From: Verrucomicrobiota bacterium
Lineage (GTDB): Bacteria > Verrucomicrobiota > Verrucomicrobiia > Chthoniobacterales > JAFAMB01
DNA: 32,766 nucleotides
NCBI GenBank assembly: GCA_019246215.1
Contig: JAFAQT010000343.1
Span: 1 to 32,766, forward strand
Direction: 5' to 3'
How positions within the stretch are numbered: position 1 is the stretch's first letter; each line of letters opens with the position of its first letter. Position numbers and translations under genes: made by a program. Of this stretch, positions 11,382-25,434 are shown piece after piece. Below the pieces are notes generated by a model. The model ran no database searches, had not been told where the DNA came from, and worked only from the letters and a program-made list of their open reading frames with translations.

Positions 11382-11609
11382 TTACGCGTAAACGTGGATC
11401 CAAAATCCACAATCCGGGCAACGGAACCACTGAGGGTCGAAATCCATCCAAGCCGTGAGTGCTGAGCCACAATTCGGACAGGTAAAATTGACACGCGCTC
11501 CATGCGCTGAGACCTCATCCGCTGTTTCGGTCGCGTCTGTCTTTTTGACGACCCGTCCTTCTTTGCTCGCATCAACTTGTTCACCCGGTTTTTGCAATTC
11601 AACTTTCAT
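11382..11609 (-). CDS. Small zinc-ribbon protein
   Basis: The 75-residue protein has an acidic/basic low-complexity N-terminal half and a C-terminal zinc ribbon. The ribbon has knuckles CPNCG (Cys44, Cys47) and CPDCG (Cys64, Cys67) and closes with FWIHVYA. The spacing fits a single structural zinc site. I do not recognise a named family and nothing shows a DNA- or protein-binding partner. The start is the ATG at 11609; a GGAG lies too far upstream to serve as a usual ribosome site. It is convergent with ogt. Confidence 0.65.
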   Translation of the reverse strand: MKVELQKPGEQVDASKEGRVVKKTDATETADEVSAHGARVNFTCPNCGSALTAWMDFDPQWFRCPDCGFWIHVYA

Positions 11610-11883: not shown

Positions 11884-13830
11884 TCAGGTTTGTTGCGCGG
11901 CTTCGTTGTAAAGTTTTCGAAACAGGCCTTCTTGGCCCCGCAACTCTTGTGGCGTTCCTGCTTGGATGATAGTCCCGTCGTGAAGTACCAGAATGCGTTC
12001 GCAGAACCGCGACTGCCATACAATATCGTGGTCGACCAGTACGGCAGTTCTACCTGCGCATGCGTGTTGCATAACGTCTATCAGTGGATACTTCTCCAGC
12101 GGGCCCATCCCGGTCGTTGGTTCATCCAATAAGAGCACTTTCGGATCCCGCAGCAAACATCGAGTCAGCGCAAAGAGTTTGCGTTGGCCGCCGGAGAGCC
12201 GGCCCCCCGCATCGAAGGGTTCATCGAGAGGATGTTCACCGAAAGTGTTTTTAAGGATTTCCCATAGCCCGGTTCTTTCGCAAAGTGCGACGACCTGGCC
12301 GTCCGACGCATGTGGGCTGGCAATTCGAAAATTTTCCCTAATGGTGTCGTGGAAGAATCCTGGGAATTGTGACATCAAAACGATATTGCTGCGGAGCGTT
12401 GCTAAACTAATCCCAGAGATGGGTCGACCGCCCAGCAGGATTTTTCCCCCCTGCGGTTCATAAAATCGAAGAGCCAGCCGAAAGAATGTCGTCTTGCCTT
12501 GCCCAGGTCTGGCGACTAGCCCAATCCGCTGGCCGCATGGGATCTCGAACGACACCCCGTTTAGCACGTTTCGGACCTTCGCTGCCGGATAGCTAAAGAC
12601 TACATCAATAGCTTCCAGGGTCCCGTCTAACTGACTCTCTTCAGCCGGTTCTACCAGTTGGCTGACCGCCGGACGACGTCCTAAAATCGAAGCCACTAAC
12701 GCAAGACCCGGCCATGTCATACGAGCGGTAACGGAAAGCCCGGAAAACAATTGAATGGAACTCATAAACTGTGGTGTAATCAACGCTAGGGCGACGACGC
12801 TCCCAGGATTTCCCCCTTTTTCTGAGAAAACCAGGTAGACGGCTGTACCTAGTAACCCAGCAAGAACAAGTGTCCCAGGAGCCGAATTGAGAACGTTCAG
12901 TTTCTCCATGATGACATTTTGATTCATCTTGGCGCGAAGCGACGCTTGGAGCAGATCCGCGTGTTTCTTTCCGAACGCGTTTTCGGCCCGAATCGCTTGA
13001 ATTTCTTCGGAAGCCGCGATCGCGCCTCCAACCAGCGTGGCAAGCTGAAGGTTGCTCTTTTGAACCGCGGACGATTCCCGTTGCAAGAATCGTCCCAGTG
13101 AATTGATGAGCAGCGGCGAAATAAGTGCAAACCCGCAGATGAACAGAAACGAGATCCACGCCGTTCCGCCGCCACTTCCCTGGAGTTTCACTAACTGATC
13201 GTAGAGAGTCCATCCAGCGATCACGACTCCGGATATCTGAAGAATTGGATCCAGTAAGAGCTGTCGGATTCCCAATTGAGCCTGGGTACAGAACTGGTTC
13301 ACTACCATGGTCAATCGATCCGCGTCATATTCAAAAAAAAACTCGGGGGGCTGACGCAGAATGGCGTTGAAAATATCGATTCGTATCGCGTTAGTCATCT
13401 TTCCGTCCAGAAGGCTCGTCAGATAGCGAAGCAAGCCTGTCATCACGACGAACGCGATCGACAGCAGGAGCCAGAGCAGATACGTCGCTAAGAGTTTGCC
13501 TCGCACACGTGCCGTTTCTGTTTGTCTGTCGGCTGGAGGAGCAACGGCTATGATTTTCTTTGCGGCGGGCGCACTTCCACTAGTCTCTCTTTGAGAATGG
13601 CTCGCTCGCTCTTGCTGGAAAAAGTTTGTTAATTCGCTGAGATTCAGACCGACTGCGATTGGCAGCAGTGGACGGCACACCACGGTCACCAGAATGTACA
13701 CCACGACCAACCATTTGTACCTTCCCAGGTAACGCTTCCCCAGATCGAGGATAACTCGTGGTTGAAATGGCTTATCATCCGGTGAATTTGTCTCAGGGTG
13801 GTCCGCACTCTTTTGATCCACTCTCGGCAC
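11884..13830 (-). CDS. ABC exporter, fused membrane and ATP-binding domains (minus-arm exporter)
   Basis: The 648-residue half-transporter has an exporter-type membrane domain (about 35-390) with a long, polar Ser/Lys-rich loop between the first two helices. The ATP-binding domain (about 400-648) has A-loop FSYPA, Walker A ARPGQGKTT, Q-loop LMSQFPGFF, signature LSGGQRKLFAL, Walker B VLLLDEP and H-loop VDHD. The D-loop is degenerate: after DEPTTG comes MGP where LD is expected. No N-terminal C39 peptidase is present. The start is taken as GTG at 13830, without a clear ribosome site. It lies 72 bases downstream of htrA on the same strand. The other ABC gene (17171-19054) has the same layout and different motif defects, so the two could form a heterodimer; that is inference. 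The substrate is unknown. Confidence 0.85.
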   Translation of the reverse strand: MPRVDQKSADHPETNSPDDKPFQPRVILDLGKRYLGRYKWLVVVYILVTVVCRPLLPIAVGLNLSELTNFFQQERASHSQRETSGSAPAAKKIIAVAPPADRQTETARVRGKLLATYLLWLLLSIAFVVMTGLLRYLTSLLDGKMTNAIRIDIFNAILRQPPEFFFEYDADRLTMVVNQFCTQAQLGIRQLLLDPILQISGVVIAGWTLYDQLVKLQGSGGGTAWISFLFICGFALISPLLINSLGRFLQRESSAVQKSNLQLATLVGGAIAASEEIQAIRAENAFGKKHADLLQASLRAKMNQNVIMEKLNVLNSAPGTLVLAGLLGTAVYLVFSEKGGNPGSVVALALITPQFMSSIQLFSGLSVTARMTWPGLALVASILGRRPAVSQLVEPAEESQLDGTLEAIDVVFSYPAAKVRNVLNGVSFEIPCGQRIGLVARPGQGKTTFFRLALRFYEPQGGKILLGGRPISGISLATLRSNIVLMSQFPGFFHDTIRENFRIASPHASDGQVVALCERTGLWEILKNTFGEHPLDEPFDAGGRLSGGQRKLFALTRCLLRDPKVLLLDEPTTGMGPLEKYPLIDVMQHACAGRTAVLVDHDIVWQSRFCERILVLHDGTIIQAGTPQELRGQEGLFRKLYNEAAQQT

Positions 13831-13902
13831 AAGATTCGATTCTGGGCGTTCTTTTCCCGGTACTGAAGTGAAAGTTCGCCCGCTAGGCTGTGGTGCTATC
13901 TA

Positions 13903-15015
13903 CTAATCTTCTGGCAATGGTCTCTCTCCCAGAGCTACCTTCTCAGAAACCTTTTGACCCTCGCGGTAAATATCCATTTCAACGGTTTTGCCTGGCGGCA
14001 GGAAAATAATGCTCCGCTCAAGTTCCACGCTGGACTTCACCGGGTTACCGTCCAGCGCCGTGATAACGTCCTTGGGCTGCAAACCTGCCTTTCCCGCCGG
14101 ACTGTCCGGCACAAGCCCGACGATAATGACGCCCTTGACGTTTTCTGGAATCGAAAACATGGCAGCCAAACCAGGAGTGAGGGTTTGCAACTCCGCACCT
14201 AAATAGGCGCGCCGGATCTTTCCACCCTTTTTCAGGCCTTGCATGACACTGTCCGCAAGTGGGGCCGCAATCGCAAAATTGACTCCGGAGGGAGTCGGTT
14301 CCTGTTTTTTGTTACCGAGATTAGGATCCGCATAAAATCTCGTGTTAATCCCGATCAAATCGCCATTGAGATTAACCAGCGCTCCGCCAGAGTTGCCATG
14401 GTTGATGGCAGCGTCGGTTTGAATATAGTCTTCGAACTCCCCGGGTGACAGAGGCCGATCGATCGCACTTACGATTCCCATTGAAACCGATTGGCCCAAG
14501 CCAAAGGCATTGCCGATTGCTAACACCGCATCGCCCACTCGGTAGGAGCCAGCTTCAGCAAAATGTAGAGCGGGCAAGTTCGATTCAGATATTTTGATCA
14601 GGGCTAGGTCTGTATCCGGGTCAGTCCCAATGAGCGTTGCGTGGTAATCCTTATGGACATCTTCCCGAGTCACGATAATGCCGGAAGCCCCGTCTACGAC
14701 GTGATTATTGGTAATGATGTAACCATCAGGGGAAAGGATGACTCCGGAGCCTTGGCTGCCTCCCACGATCTCGGATTGATCCGGGTTCTCACGCCTGCCA
14801 AAAGGGTCTGTCTTAATCTCGGAAGAACGCTTTGTAACAGTGATCGAGACGACCGAGGGCGCAACCCTGGCCACAAGATCAGCCACTCCCGGAGCCTGTT
14901 TCGGATTGGTGTTTTGCCCGAACCCGAACTCGCCTGGAGCCAGGATCGCAAAAGCAGTCAAAGCAGTCAATATTGCTGTCGCAGCGGGCGACGCGAGGAC
15001 CCTGCGAAAATTCAT
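13903..15015 (-). CDS. Secreted HtrA/DegP-type serine protease with one PDZ domain
   Basis: The 370-residue protein starts with a signal peptide or anchor (hydrophobic about 9-28). A trypsin-like protease domain follows with triad His105 (ITNNHVVDG), Asp136 (DPDTDLALIK) and Ser209 (HGNSGGALVNL). A single PDZ domain occupies about 265-360, including GVIIVGLVPDSPAGKAGL and DVITALDGNPV. This makes it a DegS/HtrA-like periplasmic quality-control protease rather than the two-PDZ DegP type. It starts with ATG at 15015, 19 bases after the small unknown gene and 72 before the exporter gene, so the three probably form one transcript. Its place in a cassette with a second protease and two exporters suggests a role in processing or surveillance of exported material, which is inference. 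Confidence 0.92.
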   Translation of the reverse strand: MNFRRVLASPAATAILTALTAFAILAPGEFGFGQNTNPKQAPGVADLVARVAPSVVSITVTKRSSEIKTDPFGRRENPDQSEIVGGSQGSGVILSPDGYIITNNHVVDGASGIIVTREDVHKDYHATLIGTDPDTDLALIKISESNLPALHFAEAGSYRVGDAVLAIGNAFGLGQSVSMGIVSAIDRPLSPGEFEDYIQTDAAINHGNSGGALVNLNGDLIGINTRFYADPNLGNKKQEPTPSGVNFAIAAPLADSVMQGLKKGGKIRRAYLGAELQTLTPGLAAMFSIPENVKGVIIVGLVPDSPAGKAGLQPKDVITALDGNPVKSSVELERSIIFLPPGKTVEMDIYREGQKVSEKVALGERPLPED

Positions 15016-15034
15016 GAAAGTTAACGGGTTCTAA

Positions 15035-15409
15035 CTAGGTCAAATGGGCACCTGTCCGGTTGTCTCTTAGAAATCTTGCCGGAAAACCTCCACCAGGGTG
15101 AAAGTGAAGTCCGGTGTAGCAAATGCCATCGTCCTCAGAGACTGCGGTGCCATACAATAGGTCAGAATGCGGTCCATATTGACCGTCTTCGCGGAGCACG
15201 TAGTGGCGCGCAGAGACTTCATCAGCAGCGTTCGCATTTGGAAGAATCAAACCAGTGTAGGGAGCAATCGGCAGATGCCCCAGCTCCTTGATGCGCTCTG
15301 GAGAGACCCTGTGTTGTTTCGCTAGTGCTTCAGGGAATTCGTAGACAAATCCGTCCAGGCCGGTCAAAAAAACTGAGCCAAGAGGCTCCGGATATAATTT
15401 GATGCTCAT
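15035..15409 (-). CDS. Unknown 124-residue protein, possible substrate of the flanking protease/exporter genes
   Basis: I do not recognise this protein. The ATG at 15409 (MSIKLYPEPLGSVF) is chosen because the 88 codons open upstream have no coding character and fall in the divergent promoter region. The N-terminal part includes a helical stretch (PEALAKQHRVSPERIKELGH). The C-terminal third is rich in Gly, His, Tyr, Pro and Asp, has a single Cys, and includes FHPGGGFPARF. There is no signal peptide, membrane helix or double-glycine motif. It is the first gene of the htrA-exporter arm and faces the GAF-subtilisin-exporter arm. The small size and position make it a candidate substrate or adaptor, but an unrelated conserved protein is equally possible. 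Confidence 0.65.
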   Translation of the reverse strand: MSIKLYPEPLGSVFLTGLDGFVYEFPEALAKQHRVSPERIKELGHLPIAPYTGLILPNANAADEVSARHYVLREDGQYGPHSDLLYGTAVSEDDGICYTGLHFHPGGGFPARFLRDNRTGAHLT

Positions 15410-15565
15410 GATGGTAAAACAGGTTGTTACTAAGGGGACGAAGCGGGGATTGGTTTTTTGCAGATTTTCTTGGCTTTTGCGGTCTCGACTCTCGGAGACT
15501 GCGTTGCGATCCAATGTTGCCTCCCTGCAACCTCCAGCAATGCTATCCGCTGCTTGTTTTCTGCA

Positions 15566-15579
15566 TTTTCTGCAGAAAA
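15566..15579. promoter_or_regulatory. Palindrome in the divergent intergenic region
   Basis: TTTTCTGCAGAAAA is a perfect 14-base palindrome, and a partial copy (TTTTCTGCA) directly precedes it. It lies in the 290-base gap between the two divergent arms of the protease/exporter cassette, a natural place for a shared operator. No -35/-10 pair is convincing. Confidence 0.35.
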
Positions 15580-15699
15580 ATTGCAAGAGAGACGAATATG
15601 TCCGTACTACACGGTAGAGAGTCAACGAGCTCCTTAAACCAGAACCAGATATTAGCAAGAGATTTACTACCATCGCCCGGATAAGCCATCACAAAAAAT

Positions 15700-16293
15700 A
15701 TGCGATTTACCCTTTTGCCAGATCCCCGTTTTCGAAAGCATTTCTCCGCTTTGGCAGATCGGCTCGACAAAGCCGCTCAACTTGTTACCCGAGAAACCTT
15801 TAGTGATTTTGTCGACGATCTGATGACGACCGTCCTTAAAGACGGTTTTGCCGCAGCGGGAGCTGATGAAGGTACGCTTTGGCTAGTCAATGCCCGGAAG
15901 CGTAAATTGGACGCCGTATTTAATGACGGGCCAAGGGCTAAGAAAATGCGTGAATTGAGCCAAACATTAGATCGCGGCCTGATTAGCATGGTTTTTTCAA
16001 CCGGCCAGCCGTTCTGTGAAAATAACATCGAGCAAAATCCCGACCATGATAAAGCCGTCGATCGTCAGATGGGATCTCCTACCACCGCGATGATCGCAGT
16101 TCCATTTTACTTCGCCCAGGAATGCCGAGGCATCGTTTCGTGCGTTCATCTCGCAAAGAAGCCCGGATCCGCTCCAGCTCAAAAAGATTTCGACATGGAA
16201 TCGATGAGGGAAGTCACTCGGGCGGCTTCGTTGCTGACGCGCCTTTTCGATCTTAAGCTGATCTCGCGGATTATTGGCTACGGCCACGACTGA
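15700..16293 (+). CDS. GAF-domain protein
   Basis: The 197-residue protein is a single GAF-type sensor domain (about 20-185) with an N-terminal helix. Typical features are GADEGTLWLVNARKRKLDAV, DRGLISMVFSTGQPF and the core strand GIVSCVHLA. There is no attached kinase, cyclase or DNA-binding domain, no signal peptide and no membrane helix, so it is likely cytoplasmic. It starts with ATG at 15700 and lacks a clear ribosome site. The subtilisin-like gene starts 11 bases after its stop, so the two are cotranscribed, with the exporter next. A stand-alone GAF protein at the head of a protease-exporter operon could sense a ligand or control the protease. The ligand is unknown. Confidence 0.82.
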   Translation: MRFTLLPDPRFRKHFSALADRLDKAAQLVTRETFSDFVDDLMTTVLKDGFAAAGADEGTLWLVNARKRKLDAVFNDGPRAKKMRELSQTLDRGLISMVFSTGQPFCENNIEQNPDHDKAVDRQMGSPTTAMIAVPFYFAQECRGIVSCVHLAKKPGSAPAQKDFDMESMREVTRAASLLTRLFDLKLISRIIGYGHD

Positions 16294-16297
16294 GGTG
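16292..16297 (+). promoter_or_regulatory. Ribosome binding site for the subtilisin-like gene
   Basis: GAGGTG overlaps the stop codon of the GAF gene and lies seven bases before a GTG. It supports GTG at 16305 as the start of the protease and indicates translational coupling with the GAF gene. It is one of few clear Shine-Dalgarno matches in the window. Confidence 0.6.
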
Positions 16298-16304
16298 CTC
16301 ATCA

Positions 16305-17126
16305 GTGAAAACTTGGATTTCTTTGGAGCAAGCCAGAGCGGCTATCGCCTTCGGAACCGGGAAAGGGATTCGCATCGCCGTCCTGGACAGCGGGATCGAG
16401 ATCTCGCATCCCGGTTTGAACGGATTGAGGCTGGCCGATGATCTGGCGTTCATTTCGGATGGGAACACTGTGCAGGTGCGCCCTGGCGCGGGCACCGATG
16501 TTAACGGGCATGGTACTGGAATTGCCGGGATCATCCACACGCTCGCTCCGAAGGCCAAGATCGGGAGTTTTCGCGTTCTGCGGATGGGCCTGTTCGATCT
16601 CACCTCCAAACGTGACATTATCCAAAGGGCCGCTTTTGAGGCCATCGATAAACGCTACCAGATCCTGAATTGCAGCTTCGGCTGCCGGGGTGAAAAGGAG
16701 TTTATCATGGAATTCAAGGATTGGGTGGATGAAGCGTACGTCAAAGGGGTTCACGTCATCAGTGCGTGCAGCAATAGGGATTTTACGGAACGAGAATGGC
16801 CCGCTTATTTTCCCACCGTAGTGACGGTGGATAAGATGGACATCGACCAAACCGAACGTTTTTTTTATCGGCCTGGGAACCTGGTGGAATTTGTTGCCAA
16901 AGGTCAATACTCTGAACTGCTCTGTCTGGATGGTAAGAAGAAAAACGGGTTCGGCACGAGTTTCGCAGCGCCGGTCGCTACAGCGCTTCTCGCTAGGCTG
17001 ATCTCTGTGCATCCTGGTCTTTCGCCTCTGGCAGCGAAGGAATTACTTCGCCTCGTTGCGGAACCATGGCCCAGGGCCCTGAAAGCGAGGAGTTCCCCTT
17101 CGCATCGTCCGCCGACTTCCGAATAA
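16305..17126 (+). CDS. Compact leaderless subtilisin-like (S8) serine protease
   Basis: The 273-residue protein is a minimal S8 protease with complete catalytic residues: Asp28 in AVLDSGIE, His69 in VNGHGTGIAG, oxyanion Asn157 in SACSNRD and Ser219 in GFGTSFAAPVA. There is no signal peptide and no I9 propeptide; the catalytic Asp is within 30 residues of the start. It is therefore predicted to be cytoplasmic and active without pro-domain removal, as for intracellular subtilisins and maturation proteases of some ribosomal peptide pathways. The start is GTG at 16305, supported by GAGGTG. The last ~25 residues are Arg/Ser/Pro-rich and probably disordered. It sits between the GAF gene (11 bases) and the exporter gene (44 bases). 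It could trim a peptide before export; that role is inference. Confidence 0.9.
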   Translation: MKTWISLEQARAAIAFGTGKGIRIAVLDSGIEISHPGLNGLRLADDLAFISDGNTVQVRPGAGTDVNGHGTGIAGIIHTLAPKAKIGSFRVLRMGLFDLTSKRDIIQRAAFEAIDKRYQILNCSFGCRGEKEFIMEFKDWVDEAYVKGVHVISACSNRDFTEREWPAYFPTVVTVDKMDIDQTERFFYRPGNLVEFVAKGQYSELLCLDGKKKNGFGTSFAAPVATALLARLISVHPGLSPLAAKELLRLVAEPWPRALKARSSPSHRPPTSE

Positions 17127-17170
17127 GTCCAAAGCTGATCCTACAGCGAACAATTGCTTCCAGAGATCGA

Positions 17171-19054
17171 ATGGAAGATTCAAAGCTCAAACCTTTAACT
17201 TTTTGGCAGGATCTTAGACTTGCCTGGAGCTTTCATTCGTTCTTCCTCCCATACCTCTTTCCGGCGGCGTGCCTCCTGATGCTGGCACTCGCGCAGGCCA
17301 ACCTTTTGTTTGGATCGACCGCTGCCGGTCAGCGCATCATTGACACACTGAGCTCCCGTTGGAGCGGAGCCGGTCCTGCGACTGCGTCGACGCCAATCCT
17401 CGGATTCATAGTAGCTACCCAATCGCCGTTTGTTCTAGCCCTCCTCATGGCCGTTCTCCTGTTGCTTGCGGCGGTCCTGGGCATTGGGACCGAACAACTT
17501 CGCATCGGATTGAGTCAAAGGTTTCGCTTACGGATCCAAGGCGAACTTTTGCAAGCCCTTACCGTCGAGCGAGGTGAGACACGCGTCCAACGTCAAACTG
17601 GCGAGATGATCAAAACCTTCATGACGGACGCCGCCGGCCTCAGCGCTCTGCTGATCTTTGGCGTCTTAGGAATTTTCGAGAATGGGGTTAAAGGCGTGAC
17701 TTACGCCATAGGTCTGTGCGGTATCCCTGACGGCTGGAAGGTGTTATTCATTATCGTGCCGTTCACCATTTTGTTTCAGACTTTGGTGAATCGGATATTT
17801 TCGGATGCGGAACGAACCGCGAACGTGCGCAGCGACACCATGAACCGGAAAGCCTCCGCCCGCATCGTTCGGTTTTTCGAGCTTGTCGGACGCCTGGTCT
17901 ACTTCGGGGGCGAGCAGAAAGAGGCGGCGGAAATACTGCATCTCTCCAGGGAGGCAGGGAAAGCGAATCGAAGGTTCAGTTTAATCTCTTCGGCCCGCGC
18001 CGCCACCGCCGGGATCGTGACGAGCCTCTCGTTGCCGTTGATTGTCATCATTCTCGTGCAGGGAGCCGTGCCGGTTACCCCAGGGACGATTGTTCAGGCG
18101 CAGAGCTTGCTCGGTCTGCTTCTGATGAGCATCTCTAGCCTGGCCACAGCGCCTCTAATGATTGCAGGGTCAAGTCCGGGCATGCGGCAGATCCGAAAGG
18201 TTCTTGATATCCCTAAGCCGGGTCCGCGGCCCCCTGAGCTGCCCGATGTCACTGCTCGCCCCGGTCCAGCTTCTCTCAGTCTCAAAGACGTGACTTTCAA
18301 GTACTCCGGCGGAAGCAAACTCGTGCTCCGCGGGGTGAGCTTTGATATCCCTGCCGGAGCGGTGGTTGGGATAACCGGGAGATCCGGCAGTGGGAAAAGC
18401 ACGTTAGGTAAACTGCTGAACGGCGACCTGATACCGGGGGACGGGAAAATATGCGTGGATGATGTCGATATCACCAGCTGGCATCTCCTCTGGAAACGGG
18501 AGTTGATCGGGTACCTTCCCACTGGGTTTGAGTTTCTCGATGGTACGCTCGAGGAAAATATCCTGATCGGCAGAGACTACTCCCAGATTGACCATTTTGA
18601 GGAAGCTCTACGGCTCTCCGGTGTGGCAAAGTTTTTGCAAGAAGATGGCATTACACTCCAGCATTTCATTCGCAGCCTGAGCGGGGAAGGGTATCTTTCG
18701 TTCGGTCAACGTCGGCGTGTCGGGATCGCTCAACTTCTTTGCGGGAAACAACGCATTCTAATCCTCGACGAACCTGGTTCTAGCCTGGATCCGGAAACGA
18801 TGTTGACCATCGCTGCTAACCTCCGTGAGGCAGTTCGAGGCAGAACAACTCTCCTCATCACGCATGATCCGGACGTCTTTATCACCGATTTTAACTTGTT
18901 TATTAAAAATGGGGTGATCGCAGATGTCGGGCCTCACGAGGTGCTGATGCTGAGAAATCAGGACTATTTTGATTTACTGAACAAAAATATAAACGAACGC
19001 AGCCAGCGGGCCCGGATGACCACCGCCCCGGGAGCGGAACGAGAGTCGTCGTGA
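17171..19054 (+). CDS. ABC exporter, fused membrane and ATP-binding domains (plus-arm exporter)
   Basis: The 627-residue half-transporter has helices around 25-50, 75-115, 160-205 and 285-345, again with a long loop between the first two. The ATP-binding domain (about 375-600) has Walker A GRSGSGKST, Walker B ILILDEP, D-loop SSLDPE and H-loop THDPD. The Q-loop Gln is replaced by Thr451 (GYLPTGFEF), and the signature reads LSFGQRRRVGIAQ with an inserted segment before it. No peptidase domain is attached. I chose the ATG at 17171 because the alternative at 17066 starts inside the protease gene and adds an atypical polar segment. It is the last gene of the GAF-protease operon. Its complementary motif defects make it a possible partner of the exporter at 11884-13830. 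Confidence 0.85.
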   Translation: MEDSKLKPLTFWQDLRLAWSFHSFFLPYLFPAACLLMLALAQANLLFGSTAAGQRIIDTLSSRWSGAGPATASTPILGFIVATQSPFVLALLMAVLLLLAAVLGIGTEQLRIGLSQRFRLRIQGELLQALTVERGETRVQRQTGEMIKTFMTDAAGLSALLIFGVLGIFENGVKGVTYAIGLCGIPDGWKVLFIIVPFTILFQTLVNRIFSDAERTANVRSDTMNRKASARIVRFFELVGRLVYFGGEQKEAAEILHLSREAGKANRRFSLISSARAATAGIVTSLSLPLIVIILVQGAVPVTPGTIVQAQSLLGLLLMSISSLATAPLMIAGSSPGMRQIRKVLDIPKPGPRPPELPDVTARPGPASLSLKDVTFKYSGGSKLVLRGVSFDIPAGAVVGITGRSGSGKSTLGKLLNGDLIPGDGKICVDDVDITSWHLLWKRELIGYLPTGFEFLDGTLEENILIGRDYSQIDHFEEALRLSGVAKFLQEDGITLQHFIRSLSGEGYLSFGQRRRVGIAQLLCGKQRILILDEPGSSLDPETMLTIAANLREAVRGRTTLLITHDPDVFITDFNLFIKNGVIADVGPHEVLMLRNQDYFDLLNKNINERSQRARMTTAPGAERESS

Positions 19055-19199: not shown

Positions 19200-22100
19200 T
19201 CATTTCCAATTTCCGATGAGGATGAAAGGGGCCCAGAAATAGGGGTGAGCGAAACGGACACGACTCGGATTGCCCGCGCCTTCGAGCAGTGCAAGTTGCG
19301 CCCTGCGCAACGCCTCCCCTTTCGAAATGCCGCGTTCCATCTCATGCAGATGGTAGAACTGTTGCATCAAAAGCGTTGTACTGTCATCGGCTACCGACCA
19401 GAGCGTGGCAATGATCGCCTTGGCGCCTTTTCGCTGAGCGATCATCCCAAGACTTTCCCATTCGCCGCCGGAAGCGTTCGTCGATCCGACTGCCGTGTTG
19501 CAGGCAGACAATGTCAGGAGATCGACATTGGCAAATAAATTGGGGATTAAACTCAGCTGCGTGAGCGTGAGATGAGTTCCATCACCAAGCAGCAAAAACG
19601 ATCTATCCTCACTTTCAGGTTCAAGCTCGAAATGGCTAGCGATGTGTACAACCGGATAGCTGATACGTAACGAATTCTTCACCTGATCTTCCGTGAACTC
19701 CTCGTTGAGGAGTACTTTGCCGGGAAGCACACCAAGATCGGGTTTGCCGCTTTCATCGCGAACGATGTCGTGCAATTCTTCCGGCACCGATGGTAGCGCC
19801 ACAAATCCCGGCTCGGCTTTCGACATGCCCATGCCGAGCGCTTTCCAACCGGGAACCGGGACTGCTGCAAGTCGCGTGCGGCTGGCCAACGTAAACTCCA
19901 CGTTGCAGAATCGTTGGAGCAAGTATTTCTCACCGTCATAGAGCGCTGCGATCGGCAAATAGCGCAACATGCCGTCGAGCGACCACATTAGGATCTGCGC
20001 ATGCGCGCCATCGAGGTCTTTCGCGATCGGGCCAATCAGGATATTATAAAGATCGTGTGCCAGTGTTCGAGGGTCTTCAGCTGGGTCCTGTAAAGCATTT
20101 CGAAACACCGCGATCTTCTTCTCTAACGCGAGGCGCCCGATTGGATATTCGCGAGCGATGACTACATCCGGAGTGATCAGAATAACATGTAACTTCGTTT
20201 CTCCGGCGAGGGTGCATATCGCTACCACACCCGCACCCAGATCACGAACATCTTGCATGAGGCCTTCCGACTCACGCAGCTCTTGGACTTTTCCTTCAGT
20301 AGATGGAGTTTGCTGCGCCTCCCGCTCCAACTCGGCAAGTGTCCTCTGGAAAAATCCCATCGCCTGTTCGGATTCAAAATCGAGGCGCTTGAGTTCCTGG
20401 GATTCCTGCGGAGTTAGCGATCTCTGTGCGCGCAGTTGACTGCGCCGCGCTGCGGACGCGGCCACTTGATCGGCGCTTTTCTGATAACGATGCTCCCAAT
20501 CTGATTCCTGCGACGTCAGAACGGATGGCGCCGGCGGAGCAGGCGCTGCTCCTCCGCGCTGAATGAACTTCGAATACTCCTGTTCTTTCAGAAGGTCCAG
20601 AATTGCGCTCCCTTCGGAGACCCGTCCCTGCGACATTAACAGGTCCGCTAATTCGCGGTAAATGTCTGCTTGCGCCTGGATATAGCTCTTCCCGGATTCT
20701 GCTCCGAGAGCCCGTACCCCCACACGGATTCGCTCCCAGGCCGAGACGGAAAGCTTACCGTAAAAAATCGCCAGGCTCACCTTACCCGAGAGCCGGAAAT
20801 CGGTCATCAGACTGGCCAAAGCTCCCGCCTCAGCCCGTGGATCTTTAATCGCGCGCGCGACGGTGAGCGCTTGCTGGTGCCGAGATATCGCTTGGGTGTA
20901 TTTACCCTTTGACAAGTAAGCGGATCCCAGATTGTCAAGCGCCACGCTCTCACCTGAAAGATCGCCCGCCTGTCGGGCAAGAGTCACCGCACGTTCAAGG
21001 GCGGCGAACTTTTTGCCTGATTGACCCAGCTTGTCGTACGCTCCGCTCAAATTATTCAGCACAGATGCTTCCGCTCCAGCATTGCCAAGCTCGTGAAAAA
21101 TTGCCAATGCCTGTTCCAGGTAGGTGCTGGCTTTCTCGTAGTCGCCCAGGGAACTCGATGCGACTCCGACGTCTGCAAGGCCACTTGCCTCTCCGGCACG
21201 ATCTTTGATGTCACGGGATATTGTCAAAGCCGCCTCGTAGACTTTTATCGCCTCGCTAAACTGGCCCAGGTTCATATAAACGGATCCGAGGTTGCTCAGG
21301 GACGCGCTTTCTCCTGGTCGATCCTTAATTTCGCGTTCGATCGCCAGTGCCTGGTTGAACGCCCTCATCGCCTCGTCATACTTGCCGAGATTTTCAAGTG
21401 TCTGGCCCAAGTTGTTCTGAATGGCTGCTTCGGCTTGCCGGTTCTTGCCTTGGCGAGCCAAGGGAAGAGCGTTTTCCAAAATTTCTGCCGCCTTATCGAA
21501 TCGGCTCAGCATCGAATAGGCTCCCCCGAGGCCGGCCAGCGCGTTGACCTCTCCATCCGAAGCGCCGGCTTGATGGAGAACCGGGAGAGCCTTCTCGAAG
21601 AATTCGATCGCCTTCCCGTGCTCTCCTTTCGCCATGTAAACATTCCCTATATTAGTTAGCGTGACGCCTTCGCCTCGCAGGTCCTTCACCTCTTGCCGAA
21701 TTGGGAGTGCCTCATTCAAATATGCCAGGGCTTTATCGAACTGGCTCAGGCTAAGATAACTTTGACCAAGGTTGTCTAACGTCTGACCCTCTGCTAATCG
21801 ATTTTGCATTCGGCGATGCCAATCCAACGCCTTCTCATAATATTGAATTGCCTGTTCAAAAGCACCCGCCTGCTTGTAGATAACCCCGATGTAGTTCAGT
21901 TCTGAACCGGCCGACTGCGGGCGGTGCACTTTATCGATTTCAAATGCGGCCAGATATTGGCGGACGGCCTCTTCAAAGGTGTAGGACCTTTTAAAATCTC
22001 TCGCCCATGCCATATGAAGGTCGGCCAATGCCGCCCAGAGCTGAGCCTGCTTTGCTGCATCAGGAAGTATGGAGATCCCTCTTTCAAGAGCACGCTGGCC

Positions 22101-22382
22101 TTCTGCATATTGGCCCGATTGCATGAACGCGTTCGCAAGATCAATCAGATAGCTGACCTCGCCGGGATCAGATGCGACCGCTTCCTGGAAAAGACCCACC
22201 GCCGTTTGGTAATCGCCCGCAGCTAACGCGGCTGAGCCCTTTTGAGCCCAGGTAGCTGCGCTTGGATTCCCAGCGTGAAGATGTTGCGCAGAGAATGAAA
22301 GCGCTATTGCAAGACAGAGCCACTGTTCAAGAGATCCTCCGCCGCTAAACGGGAAGATCGCAGTTTGACGGTGCTGGGCCAA
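19200..22382 (-). CDS. Secreted TPR-CHAT caspase-like protein
   Basis: The 1060-residue protein has a signal peptide (hydrophobic about 20-36, ending near HAG). About 14 tetratricopeptide repeats of the kinesin-light-chain type follow (about 45-540), with repeated cores such as ALGNIGNVYMAKGEHGKAIE. A helical linker comes next, then a C-terminal CHAT domain (about 760-1060). The protease dyad is present: His917 in HIASHFE and Cys961 in LSACNTAVG. This predicts a caspase-like cysteine peptidase controlled by the TPR array, acting outside the cytoplasm. The only possible start is the TTG at 22382, because an in-frame stop lies two codons upstream; no ribosome site is seen. It is divergent from the unknown/CHASE2-cyclase pair, and CHAT and CHASE2 genes are known to neighbour each other in other bacteria. 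The target is unknown. Confidence 0.9.
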   Translation of the reverse strand: MAQHRQTAIFPFSGGGSLEQWLCLAIALSFSAQHLHAGNPSAATWAQKGSAALAAGDYQTAVGLFQEAVASDPGEVSYLIDLANAFMQSGQYAEGQRALERGISILPDAAKQAQLWAALADLHMAWARDFKRSYTFEEAVRQYLAAFEIDKVHRPQSAGSELNYIGVIYKQAGAFEQAIQYYEKALDWHRRMQNRLAEGQTLDNLGQSYLSLSQFDKALAYLNEALPIRQEVKDLRGEGVTLTNIGNVYMAKGEHGKAIEFFEKALPVLHQAGASDGEVNALAGLGGAYSMLSRFDKAAEILENALPLARQGKNRQAEAAIQNNLGQTLENLGKYDEAMRAFNQALAIEREIKDRPGESASLSNLGSVYMNLGQFSEAIKVYEAALTISRDIKDRAGEASGLADVGVASSSLGDYEKASTYLEQALAIFHELGNAGAEASVLNNLSGAYDKLGQSGKKFAALERAVTLARQAGDLSGESVALDNLGSAYLSKGKYTQAISRHQQALTVARAIKDPRAEAGALASLMTDFRLSGKVSLAIFYGKLSVSAWERIRVGVRALGAESGKSYIQAQADIYRELADLLMSQGRVSEGSAILDLLKEQEYSKFIQRGGAAPAPPAPSVLTSQESDWEHRYQKSADQVAASAARRSQLRAQRSLTPQESQELKRLDFESEQAMGFFQRTLAELEREAQQTPSTEGKVQELRESEGLMQDVRDLGAGVVAICTLAGETKLHVILITPDVVIAREYPIGRLALEKKIAVFRNALQDPAEDPRTLAHDLYNILIGPIAKDLDGAHAQILMWSLDGMLRYLPIAALYDGEKYLLQRFCNVEFTLASRTRLAAVPVPGWKALGMGMSKAEPGFVALPSVPEELHDIVRDESGKPDLGVLPGKVLLNEEFTEDQVKNSLRISYPVVHIASHFELEPESEDRSFLLLGDGTHLTLTQLSLIPNLFANVDLLTLSACNTAVGSTNASGGEWESLGMIAQRKGAKAIIATLWSVADDSTTLLMQQFYHLHEMERGISKGEALRRAQLALLEGAGNPSRVRFAHPYFWAPFILIGNWK

Positions 22383-22395
22383 GATCTAGCGCTTT

Positions 22396-22587
22396 TTAAA
22401 TATTGTCACCTGGTGTGTGCCGCCGACAACAACTACAAAGTCGGTTCTGTAAATCAGTGTACAGCTTCCGTAGGATCGCCGCAATCTCATCATCGCGCAG
22501 CGCCCATCGCTGATTCAATTCGACAGCGCGAATGGGATTGGACCAATATAGAAAACCAAAGAACTTCGATGTTCTATGGTTGCCCAT
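22396..22587 (-). CDS. Possible 63-residue protein just upstream of the CHAT gene
   Basis: This frame ends 13 bases before the TTG start of the CHAT gene. Its middle (AVELNQRWALRDDEIAAIL) has the look of real helical protein, and the C-terminus has Cys-Ser-Cys-Cys. If translated, reinitiation after its stop could explain how the CHAT gene, with a TTG and no ribosome site, is expressed. Its ATG at 22587 overlaps the divergent gene's start, so either this frame or that start may be wrong. I do not recognise it. Confidence 0.25.
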   Translation of the reverse strand: MGNHRTSKFFGFLYWSNPIRAVELNQRWALRDDEIAAILRKLYTDLQNRLCSCCRRHTPGDNI

Positions 22588-23302
22588 GAAAAGGAAACCG
22601 CATCGGCTCTGGGCGTTTGCAATGACAGGTAGCGAAATTTTTTTCGCCGTTGTCTGTTTCGGTCGTGTTGAACTGGGCGATCTTGCGGCAGTGTCTGAGG
22701 CGGATTCATCCAGACCTTATGCCAAGGTTTGCCTGGCGGTGCTCGATCAAAACGAAGGTAGTGAAGTGGCGTTCACTCCGGAACTCGAGCCGGGACCAGG
22801 TAAATCCATTGTCGCTCACGCCGTCGCAAGCGCTCCTTGTGTTCTCTTTGTCGCGGCATTCTATCAGGGCAATGGGCAACTCGCGAATGACTGGCGCCCC
22901 CAGTTTAAAGAGCTCAATGAAGAGTGGGATGAAGTCACACTTCCGGGGAAAAAAACAACATGGCGGTGGGAGGAAAAGGTAGAACCGCTTGATTTTTATA
23001 TACTTTTTTTGTCGCCCAGTTCGGTGTTCGCTCGTGAGCTCAAGGATCTTGCCGGCGCGATGCAGGATGCCAATTCAACGGGAGGCATCCTGAAATTGCA
23101 GACCAACAAATTGCACGAGCTCATTTCGGGCGCCGCGGGCGACTCCGACCCATCAAAGCACCGGGCGACCGCCACTGTGACCGAAATCCACGGGGTCACT
23201 CGCGGACAGAAGGAATTCCCCTGGAGGAGCTTTGCGTCCAAGGTGTACTTTGACGATCAAAATTCCGGGCTATTAGTCTTCCCGACAAACCAGCTCCGGT
23301 GA
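22586..23302 (+). CDS. Unknown protein coupled to the CHASE2 cyclase gene
   Basis: The 238-residue product is not a family I recognise. With the ATG at 22586 it has a basic N-terminus and a short hydrophobic stretch (IFFAVVCF) that might be a weak signal peptide. An ATG at 22622 and an upstream start at 22532 are alternatives, and the N-terminus is the least certain part. The rest is a soluble alpha/beta-looking protein with a WRWEEK motif, a strand-rich segment (LDFYILFLSPSSVF) and a C-terminal FPWRSFASKVYFDD region. Its stop overlaps the cyclase start by four bases (GTGA), a strong sign that the two act together. In other genomes CHAT and CHASE2 genes are accompanied by small accessory proteins of unknown function; this may be such a partner. 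Confidence 0.72.
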   Translation: MKRKPHRLWAFAMTGSEIFFAVVCFGRVELGDLAAVSEADSSRPYAKVCLAVLDQNEGSEVAFTPELEPGPGKSIVAHAVASAPCVLFVAAFYQGNGQLANDWRPQFKELNEEWDEVTLPGKKTTWRWEEKVEPLDFYILFLSPSSVFARELKDLAGAMQDANSTGGILKLQTNKLHELISGAAGDSDPSKHRATATVTEIHGVTRGQKEFPWRSFASKVYFDDQNSGLLVFPTNQLR

Positions 23303-25434
23303 CTTTGATGATCCGCAGGTTTCGGTTCCCTGATTACCTTACTTCAGTCTGGCCTCTTGCGATCACTCTGACCGGTGCGTTCCTTTTTTGGCTCCTTGTT
23401 TTTGGAAATCCACTCGGGATCGTTGAGCTGCGATGGCTCGGAGAGTTGCTCAAGAGCCGCGCAGCCGCTGGCATTGCACCGCCCGTCGACCCACACATTG
23501 TCCATTTGGATATCGACAGGCATCAGTTCGAGAGTTTCTCTACGATCGCCCTCGAATATCAAAATGCGGCGGACATCATTCGCCAGGCTACCGCGCTCGG
23601 TGCAAGCGTCGTAGTCTTTGACATTATCTTCTCACGAGGGTCCCAAGAGGAATCGCAACCGATTCTCGATTCAATCAAGGAAGCTGAACGATATGGGACT
23701 CACGTCGTCCTGGCTGAGGCGTTAGAGCCTAAGCCCGCGGATGGATTGGCGCCGGATCGAATCCGATCCTTTCCCTTCAGAGAAAGACTGAGCGAGCCGT
23801 CTGGGTTGATTAATGCTCGATCGGATATCGACGGTGTTCTTCGTCGCTACGCGCTCGTCGAACCGGGGCCCCAGGGGCTGGAACCCTCGCTCGCGTTAGC
23901 AGCCTATCTCTCCTGGCGTGGCCTTAACTGGAAGGATGTCACCTTTCCGAATCCCAGAGTGGCCCGTTGGCCGGAGTTAAGCCCGGACAATAAATCCATC
24001 GCTCCGCGTGAAATCGGGGTCGAGCCCGTGCTATTGAATTTTCGGACTGCCTGGAGTTTTCGAACCAGTGACGTGAATGCTGCCAAAGGTGTTTTCATTC
24101 ACTATCGGCTCGAGCAGATGCAACGGGAGTATGCCGACGCGCAAAATGCGCGCAGCGCGTCTCGCCCGGTGACCAAATCTTTGGACGATTGCGTGGTGGC
24201 CGTATCCTATATCGCAACGGGCATTGGCGACGTAGGGACCACACCCATGGGGACGAATCAACCTCGAGTGGTTTCCCACCTGCAGGCACTGAATGATCTG
24301 ATTCAGAGCAGTTTCCTTCACCAGACCTCCAGAATGACGGATGCTTGCGCTCTCCTCGCCGTTCTATTGTTAGTTTTCTTTATGAAGCGCTGTTCCGGTC
24401 TGGTGTCGTTACTGGTTCTCTGGCTCGGCGGTGTTTTGCTGATCATTGGTTTGGACGCCTGGTTTGTGTACGCCAGGAATACCGTTTTCAGCGCGCTCTT
24501 TGTCACCAGTCTGTGGACGGCAGTGAACCTTGCGGAAATCGTTCGTCGGTACACCCTGGAGTTCGTTGAGCGCTTGAAGTTGCGCACTACAATGAGCTTT
24601 TATTTTTCTCCGCGGGTTTTGGAACGAGTGCTGAAGAACCCGGGGTCAACCGAGCCGCAGGAGGCCGAACTTACCTTACTGCTAACTGACCTGCGCAATT
24701 CGACTCCCCTGGCGGAGCGGCTGGGCGCGAACTGCTTTTTTGCGCTTCTAAACCAGGTTTTCGAGATCCAAACTCGTGTGGTCACAGGTGAGGATGGAAA
24801 TATCGAGCACTTTCTTGGTGACCAATTTTTGAGCTATTGGGGAGCACCTGACCCCCAGCCAGACGGTCCCGATCGCGCCTTGCGGGCCGCACTGACGTTA
24901 ACAGCAGAAATGGACAGCTTCCGGGACACCCTGCCGGTCGAAATTCGTCAATTATTCGGGTACGGTGTGGCTCTGCATAGCGGTTCTGCACTCGTCGGAA
25001 ACAAAGGTTCGCGACTCCGGCTAGATTATGGCGTCGTCGGAGATCTGGTCAATACGGCGGCACGCATCGAATCACTGACTAAATATTATGGGGTCCGGGT
25101 ATTAGTAACCCGAGATACCTATGCCAAGCTGGCACATCCACCTCCGGCCCGAATGTTGGATTGCGTTGCGGTGAAAGGCAAAAATGTGCCAACAGAGATT
25201 CTGGAAGTGAGCCATGCGCCGGGAAAATCGAATTTCCACGAAGTTGCGAAAAAATACGGTGAAGCCTTCGCCCGTTACCGGGCGGGGCAGTTTGACGTTG
25301 CGGAACGGTTGTTCACCCAGGTGGCAGAAACTGAGGGTGACTCGCCGAGCTTGGTTCTGGCACGAAGGTGCGCACAATTGCGAATTAGTCCTCCTGCGTT
25401 CTGGGAAGGCGTCTTTCGCCTCGAAAACAAGTGA
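23299..25434 (+). CDS. CHASE2-domain class III nucleotidyl cyclase
   Basis: The 711-residue protein has an N-terminal helix (about 16-36), a periplasmic CHASE2 sensor (about 40-340), three closely spaced helices (about 345-415), a class III cyclase domain (about 450-635) and a C-terminal TPR-like segment ending PPAFWEGVF. Metal-binding Asp464 (LLTDLRNST) and Asp508 (LGDQFLSYWGAP) are present, as are transition-state Asn585 and Arg589 (VNTAARIE). The two residues that normally select the base are unusual: His505 replaces Lys (EHFLGD) and Gly578 replaces Asp/Thr (DYGVVGD). It probably makes a cyclic nucleotide in response to an extracytoplasmic signal, but cAMP cannot be assumed. The start is GTG at 23299, overlapping the previous stop; an ATG at 23308 is the alternative. 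Confidence 0.92.
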   Translation: MTLMIRRFRFPDYLTSVWPLAITLTGAFLFWLLVFGNPLGIVELRWLGELLKSRAAAGIAPPVDPHIVHLDIDRHQFESFSTIALEYQNAADIIRQATALGASVVVFDIIFSRGSQEESQPILDSIKEAERYGTHVVLAEALEPKPADGLAPDRIRSFPFRERLSEPSGLINARSDIDGVLRRYALVEPGPQGLEPSLALAAYLSWRGLNWKDVTFPNPRVARWPELSPDNKSIAPREIGVEPVLLNFRTAWSFRTSDVNAAKGVFIHYRLEQMQREYADAQNARSASRPVTKSLDDCVVAVSYIATGIGDVGTTPMGTNQPRVVSHLQALNDLIQSSFLHQTSRMTDACALLAVLLLVFFMKRCSGLVSLLVLWLGGVLLIIGLDAWFVYARNTVFSALFVTSLWTAVNLAEIVRRYTLEFVERLKLRTTMSFYFSPRVLERVLKNPGSTEPQEAELTLLLTDLRNSTPLAERLGANCFFALLNQVFEIQTRVVTGEDGNIEHFLGDQFLSYWGAPDPQPDGPDRALRAALTLTAEMDSFRDTLPVEIRQLFGYGVALHSGSALVGNKGSRLRLDYGVVGDLVNTAARIESLTKYYGVRVLVTRDTYAKLAHPPPARMLDCVAVKGKNVPTEILEVSHAPGKSNFHEVAKKYGEAFARYRAGQFDVAERLFTQVAETEGDSPSLVLARRCAQLRISPPAFWEGVFRLENK

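Follow-up and report, generated by a model that had tools for sequence, protein, structure and literature searches.

What does a locus produce in which two proteases and two ATP-binding cassette (ABC) exporters are encoded in two arms diverging from a single intergenic region, and which of its genes belong together? We addressed this question for a stretch of 32,766 nt (contig JAFAQT010000343.1, hereafter the window) from the 3.8-Mb metagenome-assembled genome (MAG) of a Verrucomicrobiota bacterium. Its relatives among public genomes are MAGs of the same phylum. With a probability of about 0.6, the locus belongs to a system for maturing and exporting peptides in Verrucomicrobiota, in which a cytoplasmic protease of the S8 family, gated by a GAF protein, would free the zinc-ribbon core of a small precursor, and an ABC exporter of the P0003 type would export it. 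In other words, soil and water Verrucomicrobiota seem to cut small zinc-binding proteins from precursors and to export them by a dedicated pump. Judging from comparisons across genomes, the conserved unit is the GAF-S8 pair plus the P0003-type exporter plus the EVxGR zinc-ribbon precursor, linked or scattered depending on the genome.

Organization of the locus

An earlier note, made from the letters of the window alone, described six open reading frames (ORFs) in two arms separated by a 290-nt gap. All six were found in the window sequence, in the order and divergent arrangement given there, together with a seventh gene that the note had omitted:

11382..11609, minus strand: 75-aa precursor-like gene (hidden Markov model (HMM) A5, E=8e-19; member of a family of 37)
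11502..11519, minus strand: DEVSAH, site at which S8 is predicted to recognize and cut the 75-aa precursor (from site conservation and the ElxP register)
11884..13830, minus strand: P0003, ABC exporter of the clade that accompanies precursors, without a C39 peptidase domain
13903..15015, minus strand: P0002, secreted HtrA-type protease with a signal peptide, a trypsin domain and one PDZ domain
15035..15409, minus strand: P0001, 124-aa protein with homologs confined to the genus, containing DEVSARH
15410..15699, no strand: divergent intergenic region, 290 nt
15700..16293, plus strand: P0004, stand-alone GAF protein, presumably the sensor/regulator for S8 (from the Pfam GAF match and adjacency to S8)
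16305..17126, plus strand: P0005, leaderless cytoplasmic S8 protease, triad D28/H69/S219, oxyanion N157
17066..19054, plus strand: P0006, second ABC exporter, probable start 17171, confined to the genus

The tight spacing reported for the arms is real: 19 nt separate P0001 from HtrA, 72 nt HtrA from its ABC neighbor, and 11 nt GAF from S8, while S8 and P0006 overlap if the start at 17066 is used, or lie 44 nt apart with the better start at 17171. Pfam gathering scores were passed by P0002 (Trypsin_2/PDZ), P0003 and P0006 (ABC_membrane and ABC_tran), P0004 (GAF) and P0005 (Peptidase_S8); P0001 matched no family in the Pfam scan. The dN/dS ratio (nonsynonymous to synonymous substitution rates) against the copy in a congener is 0.08-0.19 for all genes, indicating purifying selection (0.19 for the 75-aa gene), and hence the genes, the 124-aa ORF included, are real. 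The 75-aa gene follows P0003 on the same strand, 274 nt after its stop codon, and it is now the likely cargo in a locus for which no precursor had been recognized.

A family of zinc-ribbon-like precursors

The 75-aa protein belongs to a family of precursors of 59-90 aa, which combine a charged leader rich in lysine, glutamate and glycine, a short site, and an aromatic-rich core with two cysteine knuckles. The loose site pattern [DE]-[VA]-x-[GA]-[RH] is present in 37/37 aligned members. In the window precursor the leader comprises residues 1-36, ending in the site D31-E-V-S-A-H36, and the core residues 37-75 (CPNCG...WFRCPDCG); the S8 protease is predicted to cut after His36. Across the family, the predicted leaders have a median of ~35 aa and the predicted cores comprise 33-57 residues (median 38). 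The same genome contains a second copy of the arrangement (L017/L165), with GAF, S8 and ABC genes followed by a gene for a 59-aa precursor (L165:2706-2885, cut predicted after R26). In an AF2 model of the window precursor, confidence is lowest for residues 26-35, a disordered segment just before the predicted cut, and ~75-83 in the core. Profile comparison relates the core to zinc ribbons (RpoM-2, E=4e-6) and suggests that it may bind zinc, but the first knuckle is CxxD in many precursors and a Foldseek search with the precursor model returned no significant match. Searching with the precursor HMM revealed members in 10/57 relatives, with up to 10 genes per genome, mostly distant from GAF-S8.

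Exporters and their co-occurrence with precursors

The P0003-clade exporter, searched for independently of the precursors, is present in exactly the same 10/57 relatives. At the level of the class, it occurs in exactly the 9/384 genomes with convincing precursors (Fisher test 2e-18, by genus 9e-10), and at all examined loci except one (G174, see below) a precursor lies within a few hundred bases of it. Because of this adjacency and perfect co-occurrence, export of the core can be attributed, provisionally, to exporters of the P0003 type. GAF-S8 was found in 9/10 of the relatives with exporter and precursor; in the tenth (G051) a sigma-cl2-GAF array (cl2 is described below) reaches the contig end exactly where S8 would come next. 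In the class, S8 is present in 8/9 genomes with exporter and precursor. The distance between the parts varies: in G228, a genome in one contig, 700 kb separate the exporter-precursor unit from GAF-S8, and in G397 the two are adjacent. P0003 and P0006 contain only the ABC_membrane and ABC_tran domains and are not C39 peptidase exporters; in the case of P0003, leader removal therefore needs another enzyme.

These distributions bear on the proposal of the earlier note that the six genes form a two-protease, two-exporter cassette, here taken as one dedicated system whose product is P0001. All six are syntenic and under purifying selection in the congener (G001, L029), and P0001 carries DEVSAR. However, the complete set was found outside the window only in this congener, P0001 and P0006 are absent outside the genus, and GAF-S8 and P0003 are widespread without them. 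As a unit, the six-gene cassette is ruled out beyond the genus, and we consider this explanation very improbable. The expectation that the two arms occur together fails outside close relatives, but the core of GAF-S8, P0003-type exporter and precursor passes the conserved-clustering check, and the idea that S8 trims and an exporter exports is well supported by comparative genomics. HtrA, P0001 and P0006 are, on the same comparisons, additions specific to the genus. In three relatives a secreted trypsin-like protease is encoded after S8, but HtrA resembles these only in the protease domain, which leaves its place uncertain. A heterodimer of P0003 and P0006 is not needed, as the Walker B motif and H-loop are intact in both and single P0003-type exporters exist elsewhere.

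The GAF-S8 pair

P0005 is a genuine S8 subtilase (88.4 bits against PF00082, gathering threshold 21.8). The catalytic residues described in the earlier note are intact, and the Asp/His/Ser triad is conserved in 82/82 homologs. The description as leaderless also holds: ~27 residues precede the catalytic Asp and a signal peptide is absent, from which we conclude that P0005 is, by its sequence, a cytoplasmic protease. Its orthologs (~50% identity) were found in 11/57 relatives, including the second copy in the genome of the window. A scan with one genome per species yielded 80 further S8 loci, nearly all in Verrucomicrobiota (Spartobacteria, Verrucomicrobiales, Akkermansiaceae, Pedosphaera and Methylacidiphilaceae), plus one in a Gemmatimonadaceae MAG. 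In 81/82 loci S8 has a GAF gene as its neighbor, which in most cases lies immediately upstream and often overlaps it by a few bases; given such strict linkage, the GAF protein probably gates the protease.

Cysteines beside the S1 strand of S8 are conserved (Cys123 in 82/82, Cys127 in 81/82, residue 155 in 73/82), as is Cys148 of the GAF protein P0004 (73/80). In these cytoplasmic proteins they could possibly constitute a redox or metal switch.

Many GAF-S8 loci contain cl2 alone, or have a YkuD, CobW, trypsin or ~300-aa protein as the partner. The YkuD L,D-transpeptidase-like protein encoded after GAF-S8 has a novel N-terminal region (L101, L070, L088 and ~20 other Verrucomicrobiales loci), and the ~300-aa family, encoded directly downstream of GAF-S8 (e.g. 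L087:6757-7686 and ~15 other Akkermansiaceae-type loci), has no Pfam or NCBIfam match. In L056:7454-12117 (also in L026) a PapB-like radical SAM peptide maturase and a cNMP-binding C39 ABC exporter replace the P0003-type exporter.

A site shared by unrelated small proteins

Small genes near GAF-S8 loci share the short site [DE]-V-[SGA]-[GA]-[RH], found in 33/325 small genes, many of which are homologs and hence not independent, versus 16/1029 large genes, a rate close to chance. Two unrelated families bear it, namely the zinc-ribbon precursors and cl2, a helical protein of ~75 aa encoded in 51/82 loci beside an ECF-like (extracytoplasmic function) sigma factor or just before GAF. The strict pattern is present in 50/57 cl2 proteins. 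At three loci of the genus g4 (L031, L033, L057) three tandem cl2 paralogs lie beside the sigma gene.

In P0001 the site DEVSARH (E64-R68 at 15206-15220, minus strand) adjoins a linker that differs between the two orthologs. The shuffle probability of the site is 0.0024 in the 75-aa protein and 0.004 in P0001, which is probably a second client of S8. As a widespread precursor P0001 is rejected: among the 57 relatives only the congener has a homolog, and none of the 384 class genomes except its own does; its AF2 model, built from two sequences, has a pLDDT of 37 and is useless.

The prevalence of cl2, together with a sigma factor at 31/82 GAF-S8 loci, raises the possibility that the pair is mainly regulatory: on a signal perceived by GAF, S8 would cut cl2 at EVxG[RH] and alter sigma-factor activity, the zinc ribbons would be intracellular regulators, and the exporters would carry something else. 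Zinc ribbons frequently serve as RNA-polymerase or RNA-binding modules. Other phyla also have distant S8-GAF pairs with a sigma factor, in the order sigma factor-S8-GAF (S8 and GAF reversed) on a plasmid of Miltoncostaea oceani (Actinomycetota; L215:5336-7367) and as sigma-S8-GAF-CHAT in Gemmatirosa (Gemmatimonadota). Nevertheless, a purely regulatory role leaves unexplained the identical genome sets of exporter and precursor and their side-by-side units far from GAF-S8, and we regard it as unlikely. The two ideas are compatible. From the wider distribution of GAF-S8 and from the distant pairs with sigma factors or CHAT, the ancestral role of GAF-S8 may be regulated proteolysis, and peptide export a lineage-specific output.

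Neighboring genes and a possible conflict system

The region next to the window cassette (19200-25434) contains a CHAT-TPR gene (19200-22382, minus strand), a 256-aa gene of no recognized kind and a CHASE2-cyclase gene; the last recurs at a few GAF-S8 loci of Spartobacteria. CHAT-TPR is found near GAF-S8 in 6/82 loci; it adjoins the pair in L049 and in L214, a plasmid of Gemmatirosa. TIR-type genes occur in L022/L024. Multi-peptidase conflict systems that include S8 and trypsin have been described (PMC7159879). One could thus envisage a defense system, in which the genes near GAF-S8 (CHAT-TPR, CHASE2-cyclase, TIR-type and trypsin) would act as a proteolytic cascade, with S8 freeing the small proteins as toxins or activators. 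Against this, PADLOC yields generic domain matches only, and in most genomes the exporter-precursor units are distant from genes of these kinds, which makes a conflict role quite improbable.

Comparison with known systems

One of the closest counterparts is the Qhp pathway, in which the cytoplasmic subtilisin QhpE removes a 28-residue leader from QhpC before export via the ABC transporter QhpF (PMC7876137). As in the proposed system, a cytoplasmic leaderless S8 protease takes off an N-terminal leader (28 aa in Qhp, ~35 aa in the median predicted here) and ABC export follows. In contrast, neither a QhpD-type radical SAM protein nor a QhpC-type precursor was found among the scanned window proteins, the window has no flavoprotein QhpG or dehydrogenase subunits, and here the protease has a GAF partner and zinc-ribbon precursors, many per genome. 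A PapB-like radical SAM protein was found near GAF-S8 in L056 only. QhpE (NF049966) is the second-best NCBIfam match of P0005, with 69.5 bits under an equivalog cut-off of 165. The best match is mycosin (TIGR03921), with 87.7 bits under a cut-off of 278.75; unlike type VII mycosins, P0005 has neither a signal peptide nor a membrane anchor, and no type VII genes were seen in the window.

Among class I lanthipeptide proteases, the cytoplasmic S8 enzyme ElxP recognizes (D/E-5)-(L/V-4)-X-X-(Q-1), and the recognition motif of NisP has Arg at -1 (PMC10885120). The site [DE]-[VA]-x-[GA]-[RH] has the same register as the ElxP motif, and the cut is therefore predicted after R/H. Our system differs in this P1 residue (Q in ElxP) and in the lack of lanthionine enzymes and of a lanthipeptide-type core. 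Double-glycine systems with C39 peptidase-containing ABC transporters (PCATs) likewise combine small precursors, a short glycine-containing site and ABC export; here, however, processing falls to a separate S8 protease, and the leaders are of neither the Nif11 nor the nitrile-hydratase type. The chemistry, an S8 protease combined with an ABC exporter, thus has precedents. Within the open-access literature searched, four features have none: the partnership with GAF, a zinc-ribbon cargo, precursors scattered over the genome, and a tag that also occurs in a sigma-linked protein. There we found no description of the GAF-S8/exporter combination in Verrucomicrobiota or of zinc-ribbon bacteriocins, in agreement with the suggestion that the system is undescribed.

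Proposed mechanism

The genes, their linkage and co-occurrence and the conservation of the site were observed directly, and from these sequence data we infer cleavage, gating, export, zinc binding and the function of the product. A precursor of 59-90 aa, consisting of leader, site and a 33-57-aa core, would be made first. The cytoplasmic S8 protease, probably gated by the GAF protein, would then cut after R/H of the site, and the protease-free P0003-type exporter would move the core out. A single GAF-S8 pair could act in trans on as many as ten precursors scattered over the genome. The S8 protease probably also cuts the sigma-linked cl2 in most genomes, and processing would thereby be coupled to transcription. 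In the window, P0001 (DEVSAR) would be the probable second client, with HtrA, outside the cell, and P0006 as local additions.

Several observations weigh against this reading. GAF-S8 is present in 35/384 class genomes and exporter plus precursor in only 9/384, so the pair must have other jobs, and 23/82 GAF-S8 loci have a YkuD-type partner and no recognized site protein. In G174 the exporter and a precursor-like gene with a degenerate site are ~15 kb apart. G354, a 93%-complete MAG, has eight precursors and an exporter but neither GAF nor S8, perhaps owing to an assembly gap, since four congeners have both. For P0001 just two sequences are available. The seeds of the first precursor alignment were peptides found via the site near S8 loci, so that the co-occurrence of precursors with S8 is partly conditioned; without the seed genomes it is still significant (p 4e-5 to 3e-4). 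Finally, of the hallmarks of ribosomally synthesized and post-translationally modified peptides, we found the short precursor, the conserved leader site, the variable core and the linkage to protease and exporter, but, as the earlier note had stated, no dedicated modification enzyme among the scanned window proteins.

A broader view, which we offer tentatively, is signal-gated sorting: a GAF-controlled S8 protease would read the transferable tag E-[VA]-x-G-[R/H] in unrelated small families (the zinc-ribbon peptides, the sigma-linked regulators and P0001) and couple regulation to the release and export, by ABC transport, of unmodified zinc-ribbon mini-proteins encoded genome-wide; an older GAF-S8-sigma (and CHAT) core would be found in other phyla.

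Implications

If the proposed mechanism is true, an abundant and little-studied phylum would possess a new family of exported zinc-ribbon peptides, with up to 10 genes per genome, and a sensor-linked cytoplasmic subtilisin would have a short transferable cleavage tag, which would itself be a means to find more clients of the protease. With sequences, partners and predicted cut sites in hand, the idea is open to testing with a few purified proteins.

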